In this document: piece after piece, positions 27,981-58,838 of the stretch
Layout: every line of letters begins with the position of its first letter
How positions within the stretch are numbered: position 1 is the stretch's first letter
NCBI GenBank assembly: GCA_902792895.1
Contig: CADBBK010000009.1
Location: 1-64,000 of the forward strand
Reading direction: 5' to 3'
Length of the DNA stretch: 64,000 bases
Source of the DNA: an uncultured Bacteroidales bacterium
Lineage (GTDB): Bacteria; Bacteroidota; Bacteroidia; Bacteroidales; Muribaculaceae
Made by a program: the position numbers and the translations under genes
The notes under the pieces: model-generated
Databases searched by the model: none
The model's input: only the letters and a program-made list of their open reading frames with translations
Told to the model about the DNA's origin: nothing

Positions 27981-28910
27981 ATGCGCGACATTACCGACAT
28001 AGCGGACGTGAAGCGGCGTTTTCTGGGGCATCTCGTCTTGGAGAAGGGCATGAGTGCCAACACGGCTCAGGCCTATGGCGACGATGTGGACAAACTCACG
28101 CGTTACCTTGCCGATGCGGGCATCGCTGTGGAGCGTGCCACGACCGACGACCTGGAGCGTTTCATCTGCACACTGCAGGATGTGGGCATCCAGCCCCGCT
28201 CACAAGCGCGCATCATCAGCGGGGTGAAGAGTTTCTACAAGTACCTGCGCATGGAGGGGTTTATGGAAACTGACCCCACCGAATTGCTGATGGCTCCCAA
28301 AATCGGGCGTCACCTGCCCGAGGTGCTCACCGTTGACGAGATTGACCGCATGATCGCCTGCATCGACATGTCCAAGGCCGAGGGCCAGCGCAACCGCGCC
28401 ATCATCGAGACCTTGTACGGTTGCGGCCTGCGCGTGAGCGAGTTGGTGGCGTTGCGCCTCTCGCAACTGTTCATGGAGGAGCGCTATGTCATCATCCAGG
28501 GCAAGGGCAACAAGCAGCGCCTGGTGCCCATCTCTCCCGTTGCCATCGAGCAAATCAGCCTTTACTTGGAGCAGACGCGTTCCCGTCAGGTGGCCAAGCG
28601 CGGTAGCGAGGATATCCTGTTCCTGAACCGTCGGGGCGCTATGCTCACGCGCCAGATGATTTTCCACATCGTCAAGCAACTGTGTGAGTTGGCCGGCGTG
28701 CGCAAGGTCATCAGTCCCCACACCCTGCGCCACAGTTTTGCCACCCATCTGCTCGAGGGCGGTGCCAACCTGCGTGCCATCCAGCAGATGCTCGGCCACG
28801 AGAGCATCACCACCACCGAGATCTACATCCACATCGACCGCACCCGCCTGCGCGACGAAATCCTCGCCCACCACCCCCGCAACCACCCCTCCTCAGCCCC
28901 AACCCCTTGA
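27981..28910 (+). CDS. xerD: Tyrosine recombinase XerD-like
   Basis: 309 aa. Residues 1-100 are the SAM-like core-binding domain (FLGHLVLEKGMSANTAQAYG). The catalytic domain has the Arg of GCGLRVSELVAL, HTLRHSFATHLLEGGANLRAI, LGHESITTTEIYIHID (HxxR, H and the nucleophilic Tyr). The length and these sequences fit the housekeeping XerC/XerD group that resolves chromosome dimers rather than a phage integrase. No attachment site or mobile-element cargo is adjacent. The gene starts 25 bp after the hydrolase operon. Confidence 0.93.
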   Translation: MRDITDIADVKRRFLGHLVLEKGMSANTAQAYGDDVDKLTRYLADAGIAVERATTDDLERFICTLQDVGIQPRSQARIISGVKSFYKYLRMEGFMETDPTELLMAPKIGRHLPEVLTVDEIDRMIACIDMSKAEGQRNRAIIETLYGCGLRVSELVALRLSQLFMEERYVIIQGKGNKQRLVPISPVAIEQISLYLEQTRSRQVAKRGSEDILFLNRRGAMLTRQMIFHIVKQLCELAGVRKVISPHTLRHSFATHLLEGGANLRAIQQMLGHESITTTEIYIHIDRTRLRDEILAHHPRNHPSSAPTP

Positions 28911-52334: not shown

Positions 52335-53366
52335 TTAGATGTAATTGACTTCGGGATGAAGAGAGATATGGAATTTCTCCATGACGCTCTGCTCGATGAG
52401 GCTTGCCAGTTCCATGATGTCGGCAGGGGTAGCATGGCCGCGGTTGACCAGGATCAGCGGCTGTTTCTCATACACTGCGGCTCCGCCATGGCTCTTTCCC
52501 TTCCATCCGCATTGGTCGATGAGCCAGGCAGCGGGAATCTTGACTTCGTCCTCGCTGACGACGTAATGGGGTACATCGCTGTAGGTAGCAGCAAGTTGCT
52601 GGAATACCGCAGCAGGCACAACGGGATTCTTGAAGAAACTGCCCGCACTGCCCAGTTCCTCGGGCTCGGGCAACTTGGATTGGCGTATGGCGATCACGGC
52701 ATCGCGGATTTCCTGTGCCGTGGGTACACCTGCCCGTGAGCGCAACTGCTGCAACTGGCCATAATCCAGATGGACAACAGGAACCGCCGAAAGCCGATAG
52801 ACGACTGCCGTGACAATGTACTGCCCCAGCAGGTCACGCTTGAAGATGCTGTCCCGGTAGCCATATTCACATTCCTCCGTGCGGAACACTCGCGGCTTGC
52901 CTGTCGCGACCTCTATGGTCTCTACCTGCTGGATGATGCTCTCCACCTCGACGCCGTAGGCTCCGATGTTCTGGATGGCCGATGCGCCGACTTCGCCTGG
53001 AATGTAGGAGAGATTCTCGCAGCCGTAATAATTGCTGCTGGCCATCTCGGCACAAAAATCATCCCACTTGACGCCTGAACCCACGCGGACCACCACCTCG
53101 CGGCTATCTCGGGACAAGAATTGGATAAACCTGATGTCGGAATGAAGGATGCTGCCTTCAAAATCCTTGGTGAAAAGCAGGTTGCTCCCGCCTCCGATGT
53201 GCAGGATTTGCTCCCCCTGGTCACGCAGGCACGCCAACACTTCAACAAGTTCATCAACCGTGTGATAACTGATGAACTGCTTGGCCTTGACGTCCAGCCC
53301 GAAGGTGTTGTGCCCCCGCAGCGAATAGTGATGCTTGATGGTGACGGAATTAGTCATGTCTCTCAT
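52335..53366 (-). CDS. murB: UDP-N-acetylenolpyruvoylglucosamine reductase
   Basis: 343 aa (an internal ATG three codons on, MTNSVTIKHH, is also possible). FAD-dependent enzyme that reduces the product of MurA to UDP-MurNAc. The FAD-binding region has LHIGGGSNLLF and PGEVGASAIQNIGAYG; the catalytic Ser lies in GSAGSFFKNPVV. Length and sequence fit the E. coli-like type I MurB. It leads the murB-murA pair and has a canonical promoter at 53388-53419. Confidence 0.95.
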   Translation of the reverse strand: MRDMTNSVTIKHHYSLRGHNTFGLDVKAKQFISYHTVDELVEVLACLRDQGEQILHIGGGSNLLFTKDFEGSILHSDIRFIQFLSRDSREVVVRVGSGVKWDDFCAEMASSNYYGCENLSYIPGEVGASAIQNIGAYGVEVESIIQQVETIEVATGKPRVFRTEECEYGYRDSIFKRDLLGQYIVTAVVYRLSAVPVVHLDYGQLQQLRSRAGVPTAQEIRDAVIAIRQSKLPEPEELGSAGSFFKNPVVPAAVFQQLAATYSDVPHYVVSEDEVKIPAAWLIDQCGWKGKSHGGAAVYEKQPLILVNRGHATPADIMELASLIEQSVMEKFHISLHPEVNYI

Positions 53367-53387
53367 TGTTGTATTGATTTAAGGCTG

Positions 53388-53419
53388 CAAATTTAGTACC
53401 AACAGCGAGATTTGCCAAA
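53388..53419 (-). promoter_or_regulatory. Promoter of murB-murA
   Basis: On the minus strand: TTTG (53419-53416), 20-bp spacer, TAAATTTG (53395-53388), 22 bp before the murB ATG. It marks the boundary of the AT-rich island to its right. Confidence 0.65.
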
Positions 53420-53451
53420 TTTGTTCGAGCAAATCCTTATCTCCCTTGGCC

Positions 53452-53640
53452 GATGGAATTTCAAATAGGAAGTGCGAAAGGAGTTTCTAATGGTGCGTTA
53501 GCTGTAAAACATGAAAAACGCACCGGGGAACGCCAAGCGGCAAGGGGCAGAGCCCCGACGAGCGTGTTTCGATTGAAAATGAGTATATTTACAGCAAAAA
53601 TGGGGAGGTTGCAGCCTCCCCCCGAGATCAATTAATTATT
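53452..53640. other. Non-coding stretch with three GC-rich hairpins
   Basis: Three stems are visible: GGTGCGTT/AACGCACC, GGGGC-AGA-GCCCC and GGGGAGG-TTGCAG-CCTCCCC. A 60-aa frame crosses it but its composition (ERQAARGRAPT) does not look like a protein. The density of stems suggests a structured RNA or the end of a mobile element; the last stem lies about 20 bp before the IS30 remnant. Confidence 0.45.
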
Positions 53641-53649
53641 TGTTTGCTC

Positions 53650-53910
53650 ATGTACAATCAACTAACCTCGGAACAAAGGTACTTTATTGAAGTGTCACTC
53701 CAAAATGGAATGAGCAAAAAAATGATAGCAGAGAGCTTAAAAGCGCATCCAAGCACCATTTACCGTGAGATATCCCGCAACAAGGGGGACCACCGTTACC
53801 ATCACAAGCTGGCGCAGCAGAAGTGCGACGAACGCAAGAATCGCATGCGCGCCCCAGATGTCAAAGGAAAAGTGCAAAATATGCCGAAATTCTCAATGTC
53901 TAAACACTGA
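53650..53910 (+). pseudogene. IS30-family transposase fragment
   Basis: The first 70 residues (MYNQLTSEQRYFIEVSL, MIAESLKAHPSTIYREI, YHHKLAQQKCDERKN) match the N-terminal helix-turn-helix and linker of IS30-type transposases. The frame then switches to unrelated sequence (NMPKFSMSKH) and stops; the DDE domain is absent. Immediately after, a roughly 37-bp imperfect direct repeat (ATGCCGAAATTCTCAATG / ATGCCGAAATCCTCAAAG) occurs at 53882-53948. Confidence 0.75.
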
Positions 53911-54334
53911 AAAATGCCGAAATCCTCAAAGATTGAATACTGGATTGAACCGAAATGCTTTAGTGGAAAACCTACGAAAATACGTAAATGTTTCAATGTC
54001 GTTTGGCATTATATTCTTGCATCATTAGACTCTGATAAAGCTTTGAGATAAACAAAGATTTTCGGGCGAAATATATCTCAAAATGGATAGATTTCGCCCG
54101 AGAAGTGACTATCAGAGTTGTCTCTAAGACTCTATTTGCCGATGATCAGAGTTTAATTAGTAATTGAAAAGTATACCACTATAATAGTCGAAAAGTGGGC
54201 TATTTATGTGGCATTTCATAGTATTTTCTAAGAAAATACACTTGGATCTGCACCTTTCTCCAGAGAACAATCGTATATTTCATCAAAATTTAATACCTTT
54301 GCATCAAAGTTTAATTTATACAACCTCGAATTCT
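53911..54334. other. AT-rich non-coding region with an 11-bp stem
   Basis: No plausible gene. TCGGGCGAAAT (54062-54072) and ATTTCGCCCGA (54091-54101) are perfect inverted repeats with an 18-nt loop. Several CTCTGATAAAG / ATCAGAG-type pairs surround it (54028-54050 and 54109-54150). It may be decayed mobile-element DNA or a terminator-like structure. Confidence 0.4.
54294..54301 (+). promoter_or_regulatory. -7 box for the XRE regulator
   Basis: TACCTTTG, 33 bp before the ATG at 54335. Confidence 0.45.
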
Positions 54335-54538
54335 ATGGCAAAACTCAATCGACTAAAATTGGTTCTTGTAGAGAAGGACAGGACAGGCAAATGGCTTTCT
54401 GAGCAACTTGGCAAGTCAACCTGTACTGTCAGCAAATGGTGCAGGAATACAGTTCAACCAGATTTGAATACTCTCGATAAGATTGCTAAACTCCTTGGCG
54501 TTGACGTGAAAGACTTGTTGAACTCAACTGAAAAATAG
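54335..54538 (+). CDS. Small XRE-family helix-turn-helix regulator
   Basis: 67 aa, essentially one Cro/CI-type HTH: LKLVLVEKDRTGKWLSEQLGKSTCTVSKWC, then NTLDKIAKLLGVDVKDLL. Such single-domain regulators often control restriction-modification or defence genes; no methylase or nuclease is adjacent here. The 404-aa gene starts 47 bp downstream, so regulation of that gene is plausible. AT-rich like the rest of the island. Confidence 0.82.
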   Translation: MAKLNRLKLVLVEKDRTGKWLSEQLGKSTCTVSKWCRNTVQPDLNTLDKIAKLLGVDVKDLLNSTEK

Positions 54539-54585
54539 AATAATATCAATTCATTTTACGGTCTGTAAATTTCTATTCATTAAAG

Positions 54586-55800
54586 ATGAAATTAAATCTT
54601 CTGAGTAAAATCAAAAACACCTCCATTAAAGATATGTTTTCGATAGCCTCCGTGTTCTCGTCAGTCACGGGAAGTTTGATTGTGGGCAATGCTGGCGATG
54701 TATCTGCAAATCCAGAACATGCAGAATGGGAAGGTGAAAAAGAAGATATTCTTGAAAGAGCAAATTGGCTTTGCTCTAAAATTGTTGTGTCGGATCCTGA
54801 AACACTCATAAATGAGGCCCCATCAATGATTGGACGTGAGTATCAAGGAGAATGGGCAATATATTGTTGCTCAATGCTCACTCATGCTCTGACAAATATC
54901 AGCTATCTTTATCCTGAAAAGAAGGAAAAATGTCCGCTTCTCATTGCAAAGATTATAGAGATAGTAAATACGCCTGTGATACGTGAGTATGACACAAATC
55001 AGTGGAAAGAAGATGCAATGGAAACGCTTGATGGTCCTAAGAGTCACATGACTTATTTGAGCATTCTTGCTTGGATGATCAGTAATTACAAGATGGCTGG
55101 TGGCGATAATAGGTATGACGAATTGTTTTGCAAACTATGTGAAACACTTAATCGACGTATGTTTGAAAGCAAGTATGATCTCAATCTACTTTCATTTCCA
55201 GGCAAGCCAATTTGGTTGCCAGATATGCTTGTCACGTTGGTTGCTTTGCGCAATTACAGCAGGTTGTTTGATGGCAGATATGACGACACTATAAATAAGT
55301 GGCTCACGAGTGCAAAGACCAAATGGATTCACAAATCCACAGGACTTCTTGCTGGTCAGTTGCCGGGACAAGGACGGTTGCGCAATATGGTGATTCGAGG
55401 TTCTCATACCGCATTGATCTGTTCTTATCTATCATTGGTGGACGAGGATTTTGCGCATGCTCAATACAAACAGATGTGTAAGGTGCTAAGGAAAGAGGCT
55501 ACATTCATGGGAAAAACAGTATGTGGTGTGAAAGAGTATCTTAGAAAGGATCCAGGATTCAAAATGACGCCTGGTGACGCCGGTTTTGTTGCAAAGGGCA
55601 TCAGTGCTGGTGGAACCGCCTTTGCTCTTGGTGCTGCAACCTTCTTCGGTGATTGGGAGTTTAGATATCAAATGCTTAGAACGGCAGAGATAGCTGGCGG
55701 AACAAAAAAAGAGAAGGGTATGCGACACTATAAAATCTCAGACACGTTCCTTGTTGGAGAGGCTACAGCATTAGCCATGAGAACCAACGTGAAACGATAA
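54586..55800 (+). CDS. Conserved-looking 404-aa protein, possible alpha/alpha toroid
   Basis: No family is recognised with confidence. After a hydrophobic stretch (SIASVFSSVTGSLIVGNAG, residues 19-37) the protein is strongly helical and carries repeated Trp/His/Tyr-rich motifs: REYQGEWAIYCCSMLTHAL, YDTNQWKEDAMETLDG, SHMTYLSILAWMISNYK, DNRYDELFCKLCETL and IWLPDMLVTLVALRNY. The repeated helical pairs with conserved aromatic residues resemble alpha/alpha-toroid enzymes. A Gly-rich tail (ISAGGTAFALGAATFFG) follows. It sits between an XRE regulator and a small basic membrane protein. Confidence 0.7.
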   Translation: MKLNLLSKIKNTSIKDMFSIASVFSSVTGSLIVGNAGDVSANPEHAEWEGEKEDILERANWLCSKIVVSDPETLINEAPSMIGREYQGEWAIYCCSMLTHALTNISYLYPEKKEKCPLLIAKIIEIVNTPVIREYDTNQWKEDAMETLDGPKSHMTYLSILAWMISNYKMAGGDNRYDELFCKLCETLNRRMFESKYDLNLLSFPGKPIWLPDMLVTLVALRNYSRLFDGRYDDTINKWLTSAKTKWIHKSTGLLAGQLPGQGRLRNMVIRGSHTALICSYLSLVDEDFAHAQYKQMCKVLRKEATFMGKTVCGVKEYLRKDPGFKMTPGDAGFVAKGISAGGTAFALGAATFFGDWEFRYQMLRTAEIAGGTKKEKGMRHYKISDTFLVGEATALAMRTNVKR

Positions 55801-55836
55801 CAATGAATATCACTCCTCTTAATCGTAATTATTTTT

Positions 55837-56166
55837 ATGGAAGAGACTTTACTAACAGTGAAAGGTTTTTTTGAAAATCCGTATATATGGGCAACATTAG
55901 CCATACTAAGTTTCTTTGGAATAACGGATTGGGTAAAAAACCTTGTACAGCAGTATCTCAAAGAAACTGGTCATAATTTCAAAGAACTGATAAACGACAA
56001 AGCATTACGCAGCTCGTTTTACAAGTGGAGTGGCAAGCATTATAAACAACTACCTCCATGGGCAAAGAGATTAAGCCGAAAGGTAGAAAGTCTTGTCAAC
56101 AAGATGGGCTTCAGGACTCGTCGTAGAGGCGGAAGAAGAAAAACTGTTTCAAAGAAGAAGTTGTAG
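55837..56166 (+). CDS. Small membrane protein with basic C-terminus
   Basis: 109 aa. One membrane helix (residues about 15-30, YIWATLAILSFFGI) is followed by an amphipathic middle and a strongly basic end (RTRRRGGRRKTVSKKKL). No family is recognised. It starts 36 bp after the 404-aa protein gene on the same strand, so they are probably one operon. A basic tail could bind nucleic acid or the inner membrane surface. The sequence downstream continues in the same frame into a decayed radical-SAM gene. Confidence 0.6.
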   Translation: MEETLLTVKGFFENPYIWATLAILSFFGITDWVKNLVQQYLKETGHNFKELINDKALRSSFYKWSGKHYKQLPPWAKRLSRKVESLVNKMGFRTRRRGGRRKTVSKKKL

Positions 56167-56460
56167 TATAGTAATAAGTCTGTAAAGCTTATTCAACCAA
56201 AGATGGAGATGCGTCCGATGGACACCGTAATCATGAATCGGATGTCTCCACCTCTTGGCTTATATACCATAGTTAGCATACTGAGAAATGATCATAAGGT
56301 TATCGTTCAGAACGAGAATATTGAAGAGATCGAATACGACATGCCTGACATTGTAGGCATAACGGTCTCTCTCGATGTCCTGCCTGCTGCTATAGCCATT
56401 GCTTCGCGCTTCATCAGCAAGTATGGTGTATTAGCCATTGAGCACATCGGCAGAAGATAA
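56167..56460 (+). pseudogene. N-terminal fragment of a B12-binding radical SAM protein
   Basis: The frame reads SVKLIQPKMEMRPMDT (without a start codon) and then MSPPLGLYTIVSIL and DMPDIVGITVSLDVLPAAI, the first strand, PPLG motif and DIVGIT strand of the cobalamin-binding domain in B12-radical SAM enzymes. It stops after IEHIGRR; the radical SAM CxxxCxxC part is missing. Codons upstream of the ATG at 56203 belong to the family pattern, so the original start has been lost. Confidence 0.55.
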
Positions 56461-56802
56461 TCCATCATCCAGAGACAGACGATGGAAGATAAACATAAAC
56501 GTAGAAATAGAAACAGACGATAAAAAACAGAACAGTGATTCAGCAATGGAGCGAGCATGCTCCTTGGATAGAGAATTCTTTGTTTACTGGTGAAGCCGAA
56601 CAGACGACCTATCATTTAGAGGAATTGTTGGGAACCAAACTTCGTGCTCTTCACTAGCTAAAGAAGGGTCGTGACCTCTTAAACTGTATATTGCTTTACA
56701 GCGTAAGGAAGTGGATATTGATAAAGTCCTTCAATGTTAAAGAAGTATTCATAAATATGATGGAGGGAAAAAGAGAATAATCAAATAAATCGGAATTTAG
56801 TA
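56461..56802. other. Degenerate sequence between the radical-SAM fragment and the TPR gene
   Basis: No intact gene. One short open stretch (about 56530-56656) reads QQWSEHAPWIENSLFTGEAE and further protein-like residues before a stop, but has no clear start or family. It is likely more decayed coding sequence of the island. Confidence 0.4.
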
Positions 56803-57372
56803 ATGAATACAGTAAATGAAAGCGGATACATGCCTACAAGGACCGGTAAGATATTTCAATCAAAATTGGAATCTTTGAAGAGTGAATCCAATTGGACAGG
56901 AATGATAAGAATGCTCAAAAGGTATGCGATGAGATATCCTAATGAATACTATATTTACCAACAATTGGCTGCAACTCTTTATTGTGATAGTGTTTCTCAA
57001 TTCAAATTGGCTTATAAATATGCTGAGCGTGCGATGAAAATCGAGCCAGATGATGACCTCAATATATACACGTATGCGTGTTCGCTCTATTATGTTGGCC
57101 AGCTTGACAAGTCATTAGAATACTTCACAAAGATTATAAATAAGGACATACACGAAATAGCATACGGAGAGCATGGAGAGGGCGTTCGGTATGCCAAACA
57201 ACTGATAAACGACTCAGTTTATATGATTGGAGTTGTTTGTCTGGACATGCATAGGTACAATGAGGCAAAAGACTATTTCATGCGGTATCTTGAAAGTAAA
57301 AAGCCCTTTCAATATAGCGACTTTACTAAAAAACAAGCGATGAATCATTTGTTGGAATTGACAAATAAGTAA
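56803..57372 (+). CDS. TPR-repeat protein
   Basis: 189 aa. At least three tetratricopeptide-like helical pairs are visible: YPNEYYIYQQLAATLY, QFKLAYKYAERAMKIEPDD, NIYTYACSLYYVGQLDKSLEYF and VYMIGVVCLDMHRYNEAKDYFMRYL. No signal peptide. TPRs mediate protein-protein contacts; the partner is unknown. It is the last gene of the AT-rich island, facing the convergent mnmE gene. Confidence 0.75.
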   Translation: MNTVNESGYMPTRTGKIFQSKLESLKSESNWTGMIRMLKRYAMRYPNEYYIYQQLAATLYCDSVSQFKLAYKYAERAMKIEPDDDLNIYTYACSLYYVGQLDKSLEYFTKIINKDIHEIAYGEHGEGVRYAKQLINDSVYMIGVVCLDMHRYNEAKDYFMRYLESKKPFQYSDFTKKQAMNHLLELTNK

Positions 57373-57443
57373 ATTCCAATTTGTCTGCTTGTTTGATGTG
57401 GTTTAGTTTAGCTTACTATGTATATAAAGCGTACTAAACTAAC

Positions 57444-58838
57444 CTACTTTCCCACGCAGAAGTGGGCGAAGATTTCACCGAGGATGTTGTCGGTGGTGAC
57501 TTCGCCGGTGATTTCGCCGAGCCAGTGGAGGCACTCGCGGATGTCCTGATCCAACAGGTCGCCGCTCAGACCGCCGTTCAGGCCGTCGATGGCGCGGGCT
57601 ATGGCATCGCGGGCGTGAGTCAGCGCCTGGTAGTGGCGGGCGTTGGTGACGATGACGGCATTGCTGTCCACTTCGGGCAGGGTGGCTGCCTCGACGATGA
57701 GGGCGCGCAGGGCCTCGATGTCGCTATCGCATTTGGCGCTGATAGCTACGACGGTCGTGCCCTCGGGCAGGACCTCGTTCAGTTCACTCTTGGCGGCTAA
57801 TTCGTCGTCAAGGTCGGTCTTGTTGAGCACGACAATGAGGGCCTTGCCGTGGCAGTGTGACAGGATATCATGGGCCATGCTGGTGTCGGCGCTGGTGACG
57901 TCAACAACCCAGAGCACAACTTTAGCCTTGTCCATGGCCTGCCAGGTGCGCTCGATGCCCATCTGCTCGACGGTGTCGGTCGACTGGCGGATGCCTGCCG
58001 TGTCGATAAAGCGGTACAGCGTGCCGCCCATCATCACGGTGTCCTCGATGGTATCGCGTGTGGTGCCGTGGACGTCGCTTACCAGGGCGCGGTCGTCGCG
58101 CAGCAGGGCATTCAGCAGCGTGGACTTGCCGGCATTGGTCTGTCCCACGATAGCCACAGGCATGCCGTCCTTGATGGCGTTGCCGTCACGGTAACTGTCG
58201 GCCAGGCGGCCAATCAGGTCATGGATGTCATGGGCCAATGCGGTCACCTCGCTGCGGTCGGCAAAGGTCACATCCTCCTCGCTGAAATCCAGTTCCAGTT
58301 CGATGAGTGCCACGAAGTGCAGCAACTTGTCGCGCAGGCCCTTCAACTCCTCGCTGTAGCGGCCCCGCATCTGGCTCATTGCCACATGATGGGCAGCGCG
58401 GGACTGGGCCTCGATAACGTCGGCAACTGCCTCGGCCTGGGACAGGTCCATGCGGCCGTTGGCAAAGGCGCGGCGCGTGAATTCGCCTGCGGTGGCATGG
58501 CGGCAACCTGCATCAATAAGCGTCTGGATGGCCTGTTGCTGAATCCATGTCGAGCCGTGGCAGGCCAGTTCCACCACGTCCTCGCCCGTGAAGGAGTTGG
58601 GGGCGCGATAAACCGTGAGCAGGGCCTGGTCCAACAGGTCTCCGTTGCTGTCGGTCAGTTGACCCAGGTGTACGGTGTGTGATTCCATGTTGGCGAGGGG
58701 CTTGCCTTGCCAGCGGCTTTGAACGATGTCGAGCGCTTGTGGGCCACTCACGCGGATAACTGCTATGCCGCCACGGCCCTGCGGGGTCGATATGGCACAG
58801 ATGGTGTCGTTGCTGCTAAATAGATCTAGTGTATTCAT
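57444..58838 (-). CDS. mnmE: tRNA U34 modification GTPase MnmE
   Basis: 464 aa. With MnmG it installs the carboxymethylaminomethyl group at wobble uridine in tRNA. The N-terminal tetrahydrofolate-binding domain begins DTICAISTPQGRGGIAVIRV. The GTPase domain has G1 GQTNAGKS (232-239), G3 DTAGIRQ and G4 NKTD. The C-terminal CVGK replaces the usual CIGK with the catalytic Cys (C461). Its ATG overlaps the stop of the upstream endonuclease gene (ATGA). Confidence 0.96.
   Translation of the reverse strand: MNTLDLFSSNDTICAISTPQGRGGIAVIRVSGPQALDIVQSRWQGKPLANMESHTVHLGQLTDSNGDLLDQALLTVYRAPNSFTGEDVVELACHGSTWIQQQAIQTLIDAGCRHATAGEFTRRAFANGRMDLSQAEAVADVIEAQSRAAHHVAMSQMRGRYSEELKGLRDKLLHFVALIELELDFSEEDVTFADRSEVTALAHDIHDLIGRLADSYRDGNAIKDGMPVAIVGQTNAGKSTLLNALLRDDRALVSDVHGTTRDTIEDTVMMGGTLYRFIDTAGIRQSTDTVEQMGIERTWQAMDKAKVVLWVVDVTSADTSMAHDILSHCHGKALIVVLNKTDLDDELAAKSELNEVLPEGTTVVAISAKCDSDIEALRALIVEAATLPEVDSNAVIVTNARHYQALTHARDAIARAIDGLNGGLSGDLLDQDIRECLHWLGEITGEVTTDNILGEIFAHFCVGK

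Follow-up and report, generated by a model that had tools for sequence, protein, structure and literature searches.

The 3′ end of trmE (mnmE) serves as the integration site of Salmonella genomic island 1 (SGI1) in Gammaproteobacteria, where tandem arrays are reported (PMC8409611, PMC5704250). The latter source also defines cis-mobilizable elements (CIMEs) as blocks with copies of the attachment site (att) on both sides and no integration or transfer genes, and describes their tandem accretion (PMC5704250). Here we describe an AT-rich block of 3,312 bp that lies at the same gene end in a stretch of 64,000 nucleotides (the window; contig CADBBK010000009.1) from an uncultured Bacteroidales bacterium. 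We consider it, with good confidence, to be a small integrase-less cassette that entered the last codons of mnmE by site-specific recombination, probably of the tyrosine type, because a copy of the mnmE end lies on each side of it, its composition is deviant, and the site holds many other elements in relatives. Integron cassette arrays, in which successive short gene blocks lie at a fixed place with copies of a recombination core between them, provide a further parallel.

SGI1, which forms tandem arrays, shares its target gene and gene end with the window block. However, it has its own int, xis, and mobilisation genes and is found in Gammaproteobacteria, whereas the window block is only 3.3 kb long, lies in a member of Bacteroidales, and has no int, xis, or mobilisation gene between 54144 and 57455; none of its five genes was identified as an integration or transfer gene with Pfam, PADLOC, or NCBIfam. 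The block resembles a CIME in its att copies on both sides, in the lack of integration and transfer genes, and in a site that elements with an integrase also use in relatives. Unlike in that model, the window genome has no integrative element beside the block, and many of the integrase-less blocks of the genus are short, hold one type of gene, and are not evident remains of large elements. By analogy, the window block would be a CIME-like cassette mobilised in trans. The site as a whole is similar to an integron array in its short successive blocks at one place, separated by cores on one strand, but differs from one in that the end of mnmE serves as the core and that the integrase observed belongs to another type. 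Nothing on an mnmE integration site in Bacteroidales appeared in the searched literature among the matches listed. As integration at the mnmE end is itself already known, it is the short, often single-gene, integrase-less blocks that may be new.

The window genome (3.2 Mb, 96% complete; the window lies on a 183-kb contig) probably belongs to the genus Sodaliphilus of the Muribaculaceae, for which we used a set of 101 genomes, next to a wider set of 295 genomes of the order. mnmE was matched in 89 of the 101 genomes, the window's included, and downstream DNA was taken from 80 of the 88 others. The genomes left out were G005, G087, G091, G101, G105, and G115, where mnmE lies at most 130 bp from the contig end, and G116 and G076, with about 0.6 kb and 1.0 kb left. 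In total, 978 kb behind mnmE was read in 81 genomes, with at least 1.5 kb downstream in 59 and at least 4 kb in 51.

Comparison with these relatives places the insertion at 54144..57455, between two copies of the mnmE end. The target gene mnmE (57444..58838) and murB, the other border of the locus (52335..53366), are both on the minus strand. On the mnmE side, the core (57445..57461, minus strand) consists of the TTCTGC of mnmE and the GTGGGAAAGTA of the cassette, which supplies the last mnmE codons. There the gene reads TTCTGC-GTGGGAAAGTAG in the window and TTCTGC-ATCGGCAAATAG or similar, some also GTGGG, in many relatives, and the C-terminus of MnmE is equivalent after the insertion, with FCVGK in place of FCIGK. 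The displaced mnmE end and its flank (ATCGGCAAATAGAGTCTTAG...) are found on the far side, at 54111..54144 (minus strand), where the 33 bp of positions 54112-54144 are 94% identical to the end of mnmE and the adjoining flank in several relatives. Compared with a pattern drawn from the mnmE flanks of relatives, this copy has 1 mismatch in 33 positions, whereas all 60 first-order shuffles of the island had at least 10. It surfaced only in that comparison; the window's own core has no second copy in the window with 3 or fewer mismatches. Removal of 54144-57455 in silico joins TTCTGC to ATCGGCAAATAGAGTC, and of the 78 genomes with any match to this cassette-free join, 21 align across the junction for 25 bp or more. 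These relatives are sites without the window block, not pristine empty sites; none of the latter was found for the block, and the best match, G017, has another cassette after the same sequence. As for the occupied junction, it could be aligned well past the core in G092, and 57400-57461 is 81% identical to G083 (locus L091). A hairpin (57398..57447, z -3.29 against shuffled sequence) forms the mnmE-proximal end of the cassette; this end with its hairpin recurs in G083 (L091) and G092 (L186), and a similar one is present in G103.

An alignment of relatives at the murB-mnmE junction, proposed by a first-pass annotation made from the sequence alone, thus revealed a duplication of the mnmE end rather than a transposon target duplication. 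The insertion does lie between housekeeping genes, as that annotation had it, but its target is the 3′ end of mnmE and not a random intergenic point. Integration at this conserved gene end would have been the work of a recombinase encoded outside the block, with the cassette replacing the last codons of mnmE, supplying equivalent ones, and displacing the old end to the far side. The integrase of an element sharing the site, acting in trans or in tandem, may have brought the cassette in or could move it, as in a CIME.

The low GC content was also borne out. It is 0.393 for 53367-57443 against 0.548 for the whole window, and when 121 segments of 4 kb, spaced by 500 bp, are compared, both the GC minimum and the strongest tetranucleotide deviation fall in the segment that starts at 53501. 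The composition is therefore clearly deviant from that of the flanks, and inside the cassette (54145-57444) GC is 0.387. However, the stretch 53400..57440, previously taken as a single island, consists of two layers, the insertion proper at 54144-57455 and a different piece at 53400-54143. The IS30 fragment and the hairpins counted among the parts of the island fall outside the insertion; the remaining genes fall inside.

On sequence evidence, the DNA behind mnmE is a tyrosine-recombinase hotspot in this genus. In 16 of the 81 genomes, mnmE has an integrase gene no more than 4 kb away, and 15 of these integrases form one blastp cluster, of which the member checked carries the Arm-DNA-bind_5, Phage_int_SAM_5, and Phage_integrase domains of a tyrosine recombinase; the hotspot integrase of G027 is 26% identical to that member. 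Shared genes were counted at 41 mnmE loci over the first 12 to 17 kb at most, which gave a multi-helix-turn-helix protein in 14, a topoisomerase-like protein (by eye) in 11, and a relaxase in 9, one member of which was checked as Mob_Pre. The 17-bp core has 11 additional perfect copies downstream of mnmE, all 11 on the mnmE strand, compared to none in each of 10 shuffles and one in a single earlier shuffle searched with the best-match option. Matches with two mismatches were set aside (10 real against 8 in one shuffle). The core pattern occurs in 80 of the 101 genus genomes, with 3 matches for a backward control, and in 60 of the 295 genomes of the order, with at most 2 copies each; no arrays were seen outside the genus with the core pattern of the window genus, which would miss other cores. 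In 12 of the 81 genomes, a second core with up to 2 mismatches follows within 45 bp of the first. These double cores are 19-21 bp apart and often followed by ATTTTTTGCAAAG; they possibly mark a second element family with its own end.

The order seen in the window, with mnmE and murB on one contig, is found at L055, L066, L068, L073, and L082, and at L077 with part of murB; in L066 (G023), only about 140 bp separate mnmE from murB. On contigs without mnmE, a core precedes murB on the murB strand in 5 of 17 murB-bearing stretches (G024, G032, G093, G098, G106), and the other 12 have no core in the part read. With a core upstream in only five, the mnmE-murB neighbourhood is confined to part of the genus. 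A murB matching the window's at an E-value of 1e-50 or better is present in 26 of the 101 genomes, and the remaining ones may use another MurB type. Many of the core-pattern matches on further contigs end in AAATG.

To describe what the site carries, we extracted the intervals between successive cores with no more than 1 mismatch, searching without the best-match option and entering the window's own interval by hand. The 23 intervals total 119,887 bp, and an integrase lies between the two cores in three of them (G018, G019, G093). An AAA ATPase is encoded in 12 of the 23, as the sole open reading frame (ORF) of at least 100 amino acids in 7; by blastp to two Pfam-checked proteins, the ATPase genes comprise 9 of the AAA_14-DUF4143 and 3 of the ATPase_2-DUF234 type. 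There are 4 DUF4143 genes in the 3.2 Mb of the window genome, a background density, taken from one genome only, that nine in 120 kb greatly exceed. The sequence GTTGCATC or a similar one often precedes the far cores of the ATPase blocks and also those of the integrase-bearing G019 and G093. Other core-bounded blocks carry the defence systems Hachiman (G113), AbiE (G083), and IetAS (G092), or HipA (G011, G069), and the G035 block encodes MksE with a DUF3584 protein, without a PADLOC match at 1e-5. By analogy with integrons, it is conceivable, at less than even odds, that mnmE-specific tyrosine recombinases on transient integrative elements insert and shuffle in trans short integrase-less cassettes, each closed by a copy of the mnmE end. 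The contents of such a bank would be mostly solitary ATPases of the AAA_14-DUF4143 and ATPase_2-DUF234 types together with defence or toxin-antitoxin systems. Solitary genes of these two ATPase types, with mnmE-end copies on one or both sides and sometimes two blocks running, were seen at L244-L250 (G024, G006, G107, G093, G098, G106). At L058, L074, and L082 (ORF cluster c31), a protein of 727-728 amino acids stands behind mnmE, followed by two smaller ones.

The genes of the cassette run from the far copy toward mnmE, all on the plus strand, and end at the hairpin. The first encodes the small XRE-type regulator already recognized in the initial annotation (core 54335..54538; HTH_26 1.7e-9, HTH_3 1.4e-7), followed by the 404-amino-acid protein p404 (54586..55800) and the 109-amino-acid p109 (55837..56166). 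Next comes an 85-amino-acid remnant of a B12-binding radical-SAM gene (56203..56460). The remnant alone has no Pfam match, but it is 46% identical over 70 amino acids to part of a complete protein encoded at L127, in which PF04055 and PF02310 are found, so the gene had rightly been described as decayed. The last gene, also as predicted, encodes a TPR protein (56803..57372; TPR_2 1.8e-8) with relatives at 1e-10 in 6 other genomes of the order. The five would have formed one operon of regulator, p404, p109, a once intact radical-SAM partner, and TPR protein. p109 is an orphan: no Pfam or NCBIfam match was obtained up to an E-value of 1, PADLOC gave its sole match at 0.04, and among the 295 genomes of the order it occurs in the window's own alone. 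It is basic, as announced, and its membrane character is a judgement by eye alone. At L127 (L127:2835-5703), the complete radical-SAM gene immediately precedes a homolog of p404; the pair of which the window keeps a remnant is intact there.

p404, initially listed as of unknown family, can now be described as a distant relative of linalool dehydratase-isomerase. Its predicted structure (mean pLDDT 78.5, residues 1-43 uncertain) has 6thm, a linalool dehydratase-isomerase, as its best Foldseek match (E 3.9e-9, TMq 0.63), and a sequence profile supports the kinship (8.4e-10). It differs from that enzyme in a PF18566 score below the gathering score (17.5 against 26.1 bits) and in key positions: in a family alignment of eight sequences, S/T and D stand opposite C171 and C180, and the counterpart of His129 is Ile in three proteins (those of the window, L049, and L127) but His in the six others aligned. 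These three residues have a catalytic role in linalool dehydratase-isomerase. On this evidence, p404 shares the scaffold of linalool dehydratase-isomerase and is not a member of that enzyme family. It is probably membrane-anchored. Tentatively, and with the substrate guessed from the superfamily of p404, the cargo may be a pair of accessory enzymes whose substrate resembles a lipid or an isoprenoid; with the radical-SAM gene decayed, such a pathway is probably incomplete here.

The p404 gene is sporadic in the genus, being present in 8 of the 101 genomes, the window's included. This distribution and the displaced mnmE end behind the block agree with the first-pass annotation in its view of cargo that was acquired horizontally and has partly decayed. 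Neither a flank-like composition nor conservation of the whole gene set at this position across the genus, either of which would have spoken against that view, was observed. Bacteroidales have many members of the p404 family, with 104 loci confirmed and 80 kept, and neighbours were counted at 88 loci (six contigs entering twice). Outside the genus listing, the nearest copy is 91% identical and sits in a rumen genome between clpX-like and recQ-like genes, an unrelated place that speaks for transfer; among the 80 kept loci, this setting was found at L095 only (gene names by eye). In plasmid and phage collections, p404 matched one plasmid record and two unannotated phage records, all below 60% identity. 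At L154, L159, L162, and L165, we observed a cluster of XRE, DUF1810/ADP-ribosylglycohydrolase, and a p404-like protein whose long N-terminal part is hydrophobic.

Beyond the far copy lies an older layer. Positions 53906..54112 (minus strand) correspond to a leader like that of an AAA_14-DUF4143 ATPase cassette, with 83% identity over 207 bp to G024, where the counterpart stands 137-342 bp behind mnmE and upstream of an AAA_14-DUF4143 gene; 54034-54112 is also 89% identical to G017. In the window, no ATPase gene follows the leader; an IS30 fragment and then the murB leader follow instead. The IS30-type piece (53653..53910, plus strand) is an ORF of 88 codons with the N-terminal helix-turn-helix only (HTH_38 7.1e-11; NF033563 1.6e-5, below its cut-off), and not a complete transposase. 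The murB leader (53373..53436, minus strand) is common to L055, L068, L073, and L082. As all three pieces lie beyond the far copy, IS30 and the hairpins of this region are not part of the insertion. Of the three hairpins noted earlier, 54055-54108 is clearly beyond chance (z -6.43), 53596-53645 has a z of -2.29, and 53525-53575 is at chance level (z -1.54; 18 of 200 shuffles fold equally well). The first contains a palindrome at 54059..54104, within the ATPase-type leader. Palindromes of this GGGCGAAAT type were also seen behind mnmE in L055, L059, L061, and L062, before AAA ATPase genes in L055, L061, and L062. An Rfam scan of 53300-57600 returned nothing at the gathering score.

Several observations weigh against a cassette integrated site-specifically at the mnmE end. 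In 20 of the 21 genomes that cross the cassette-free join, the match extends only 32 bp past the junction (84 bp in G017 alone); 12 of the 21 have an integrase element right there, in 7 the contig runs out within 700 bp, and of the two that remain, G017 and G033, the former carries an ATPase cassette. The shared 32 bp may thus be the extended att site of the integrase element rather than native flank, a limit that slightly lowers our confidence in the cassette. In addition, the TTCTGC half of the core is absent from the far mnmE-end copy, and XRE, p404, p109, and TPR were found as a unit in no other locus compared. Near p404, a relative of ADP-ribosylglycohydrolase/DUF1810 is present in 23 of the 88 loci and the radical-SAM pairing in 1 (L127). 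Finally, nothing close to the hotspot integrase is encoded in the window genome, where the best match (E 2.0e-9 over 57 amino acids) is a Phage_integrase protein at 27981-28910 of the window, so that present mobility of the block is uncertain. The 32 bp of far flank common to genomes with an integrase element at mnmE, together with the visible decay of the radical-SAM gene and the IS30 fragment, would fit a block that is the decayed rest of one larger integrative element, with the copy at 54144 as its old outer end, in line with the description of CIMEs as decayed integrative and conjugative or integrative and mobilizable elements (PMC5704250). We hold this to be possible but less probable than a cassette, as no remnant of an integrase, relaxase, or topoisomerase gene, or of any other gene of an integrative and conjugative element, was found inside the block, and as its mnmE-side end is similar to the corresponding ends in G083 and G092, two blocks in which blastp with the integrase family of the site likewise gave no integrase. 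The IS30 fragment might also suggest an ordinary AT-rich intergenic accretion, through IS30 or chance recombination, with an att-like copy by coincidence. This is highly improbable: the fragment lies outside the block, which rules out an IS30 transposon origin, a match as close as the far copy did not arise in the shuffles, and the cores downstream of mnmE recur on one strand only.

Instead of an enzyme pair, the cassette could be an anti-phage or toxin-antitoxin-type system of an uncharacterized kind, in which the regulator controls a membrane-associated effector pair. The Hachiman, AbiE, IetAS, HipA, and MksE-DUF3584 blocks that occupy the site in other genomes point in this direction, as do the ADP-ribosylglycohydrolase/DUF1810 genes near p404 relatives and, in 4 of the 88 loci, a relative of the window's XRE protein. 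However, p404 and the radical-SAM remnant matched no PADLOC model, the XRE matches cover the DNA-binding domain only, and those to p109 and TPR are weak; moreover, the fold of p404 suggests an enzyme, and company at a hotspot is weak evidence. We therefore regard a defensive role as rather unlikely.

From a biological perspective, the end of mnmE is a fixed docking site at which a genus of gut Bacteroidales collects defence and accessory genes, so that new systems could be found by reading behind mnmE. Were the integrase-less ATPase blocks to move in trans, they would open a way into the biology of AAA_14-DUF4143 and DUF234 ATPases; in the searched literature, one paper mentions DUF4143. If a bank of shuffled cassettes does exist, these poorly understood ATPases would be dedicated mobile cassettes, defensive or selfish, and the cargo of the window would be a candidate new system.

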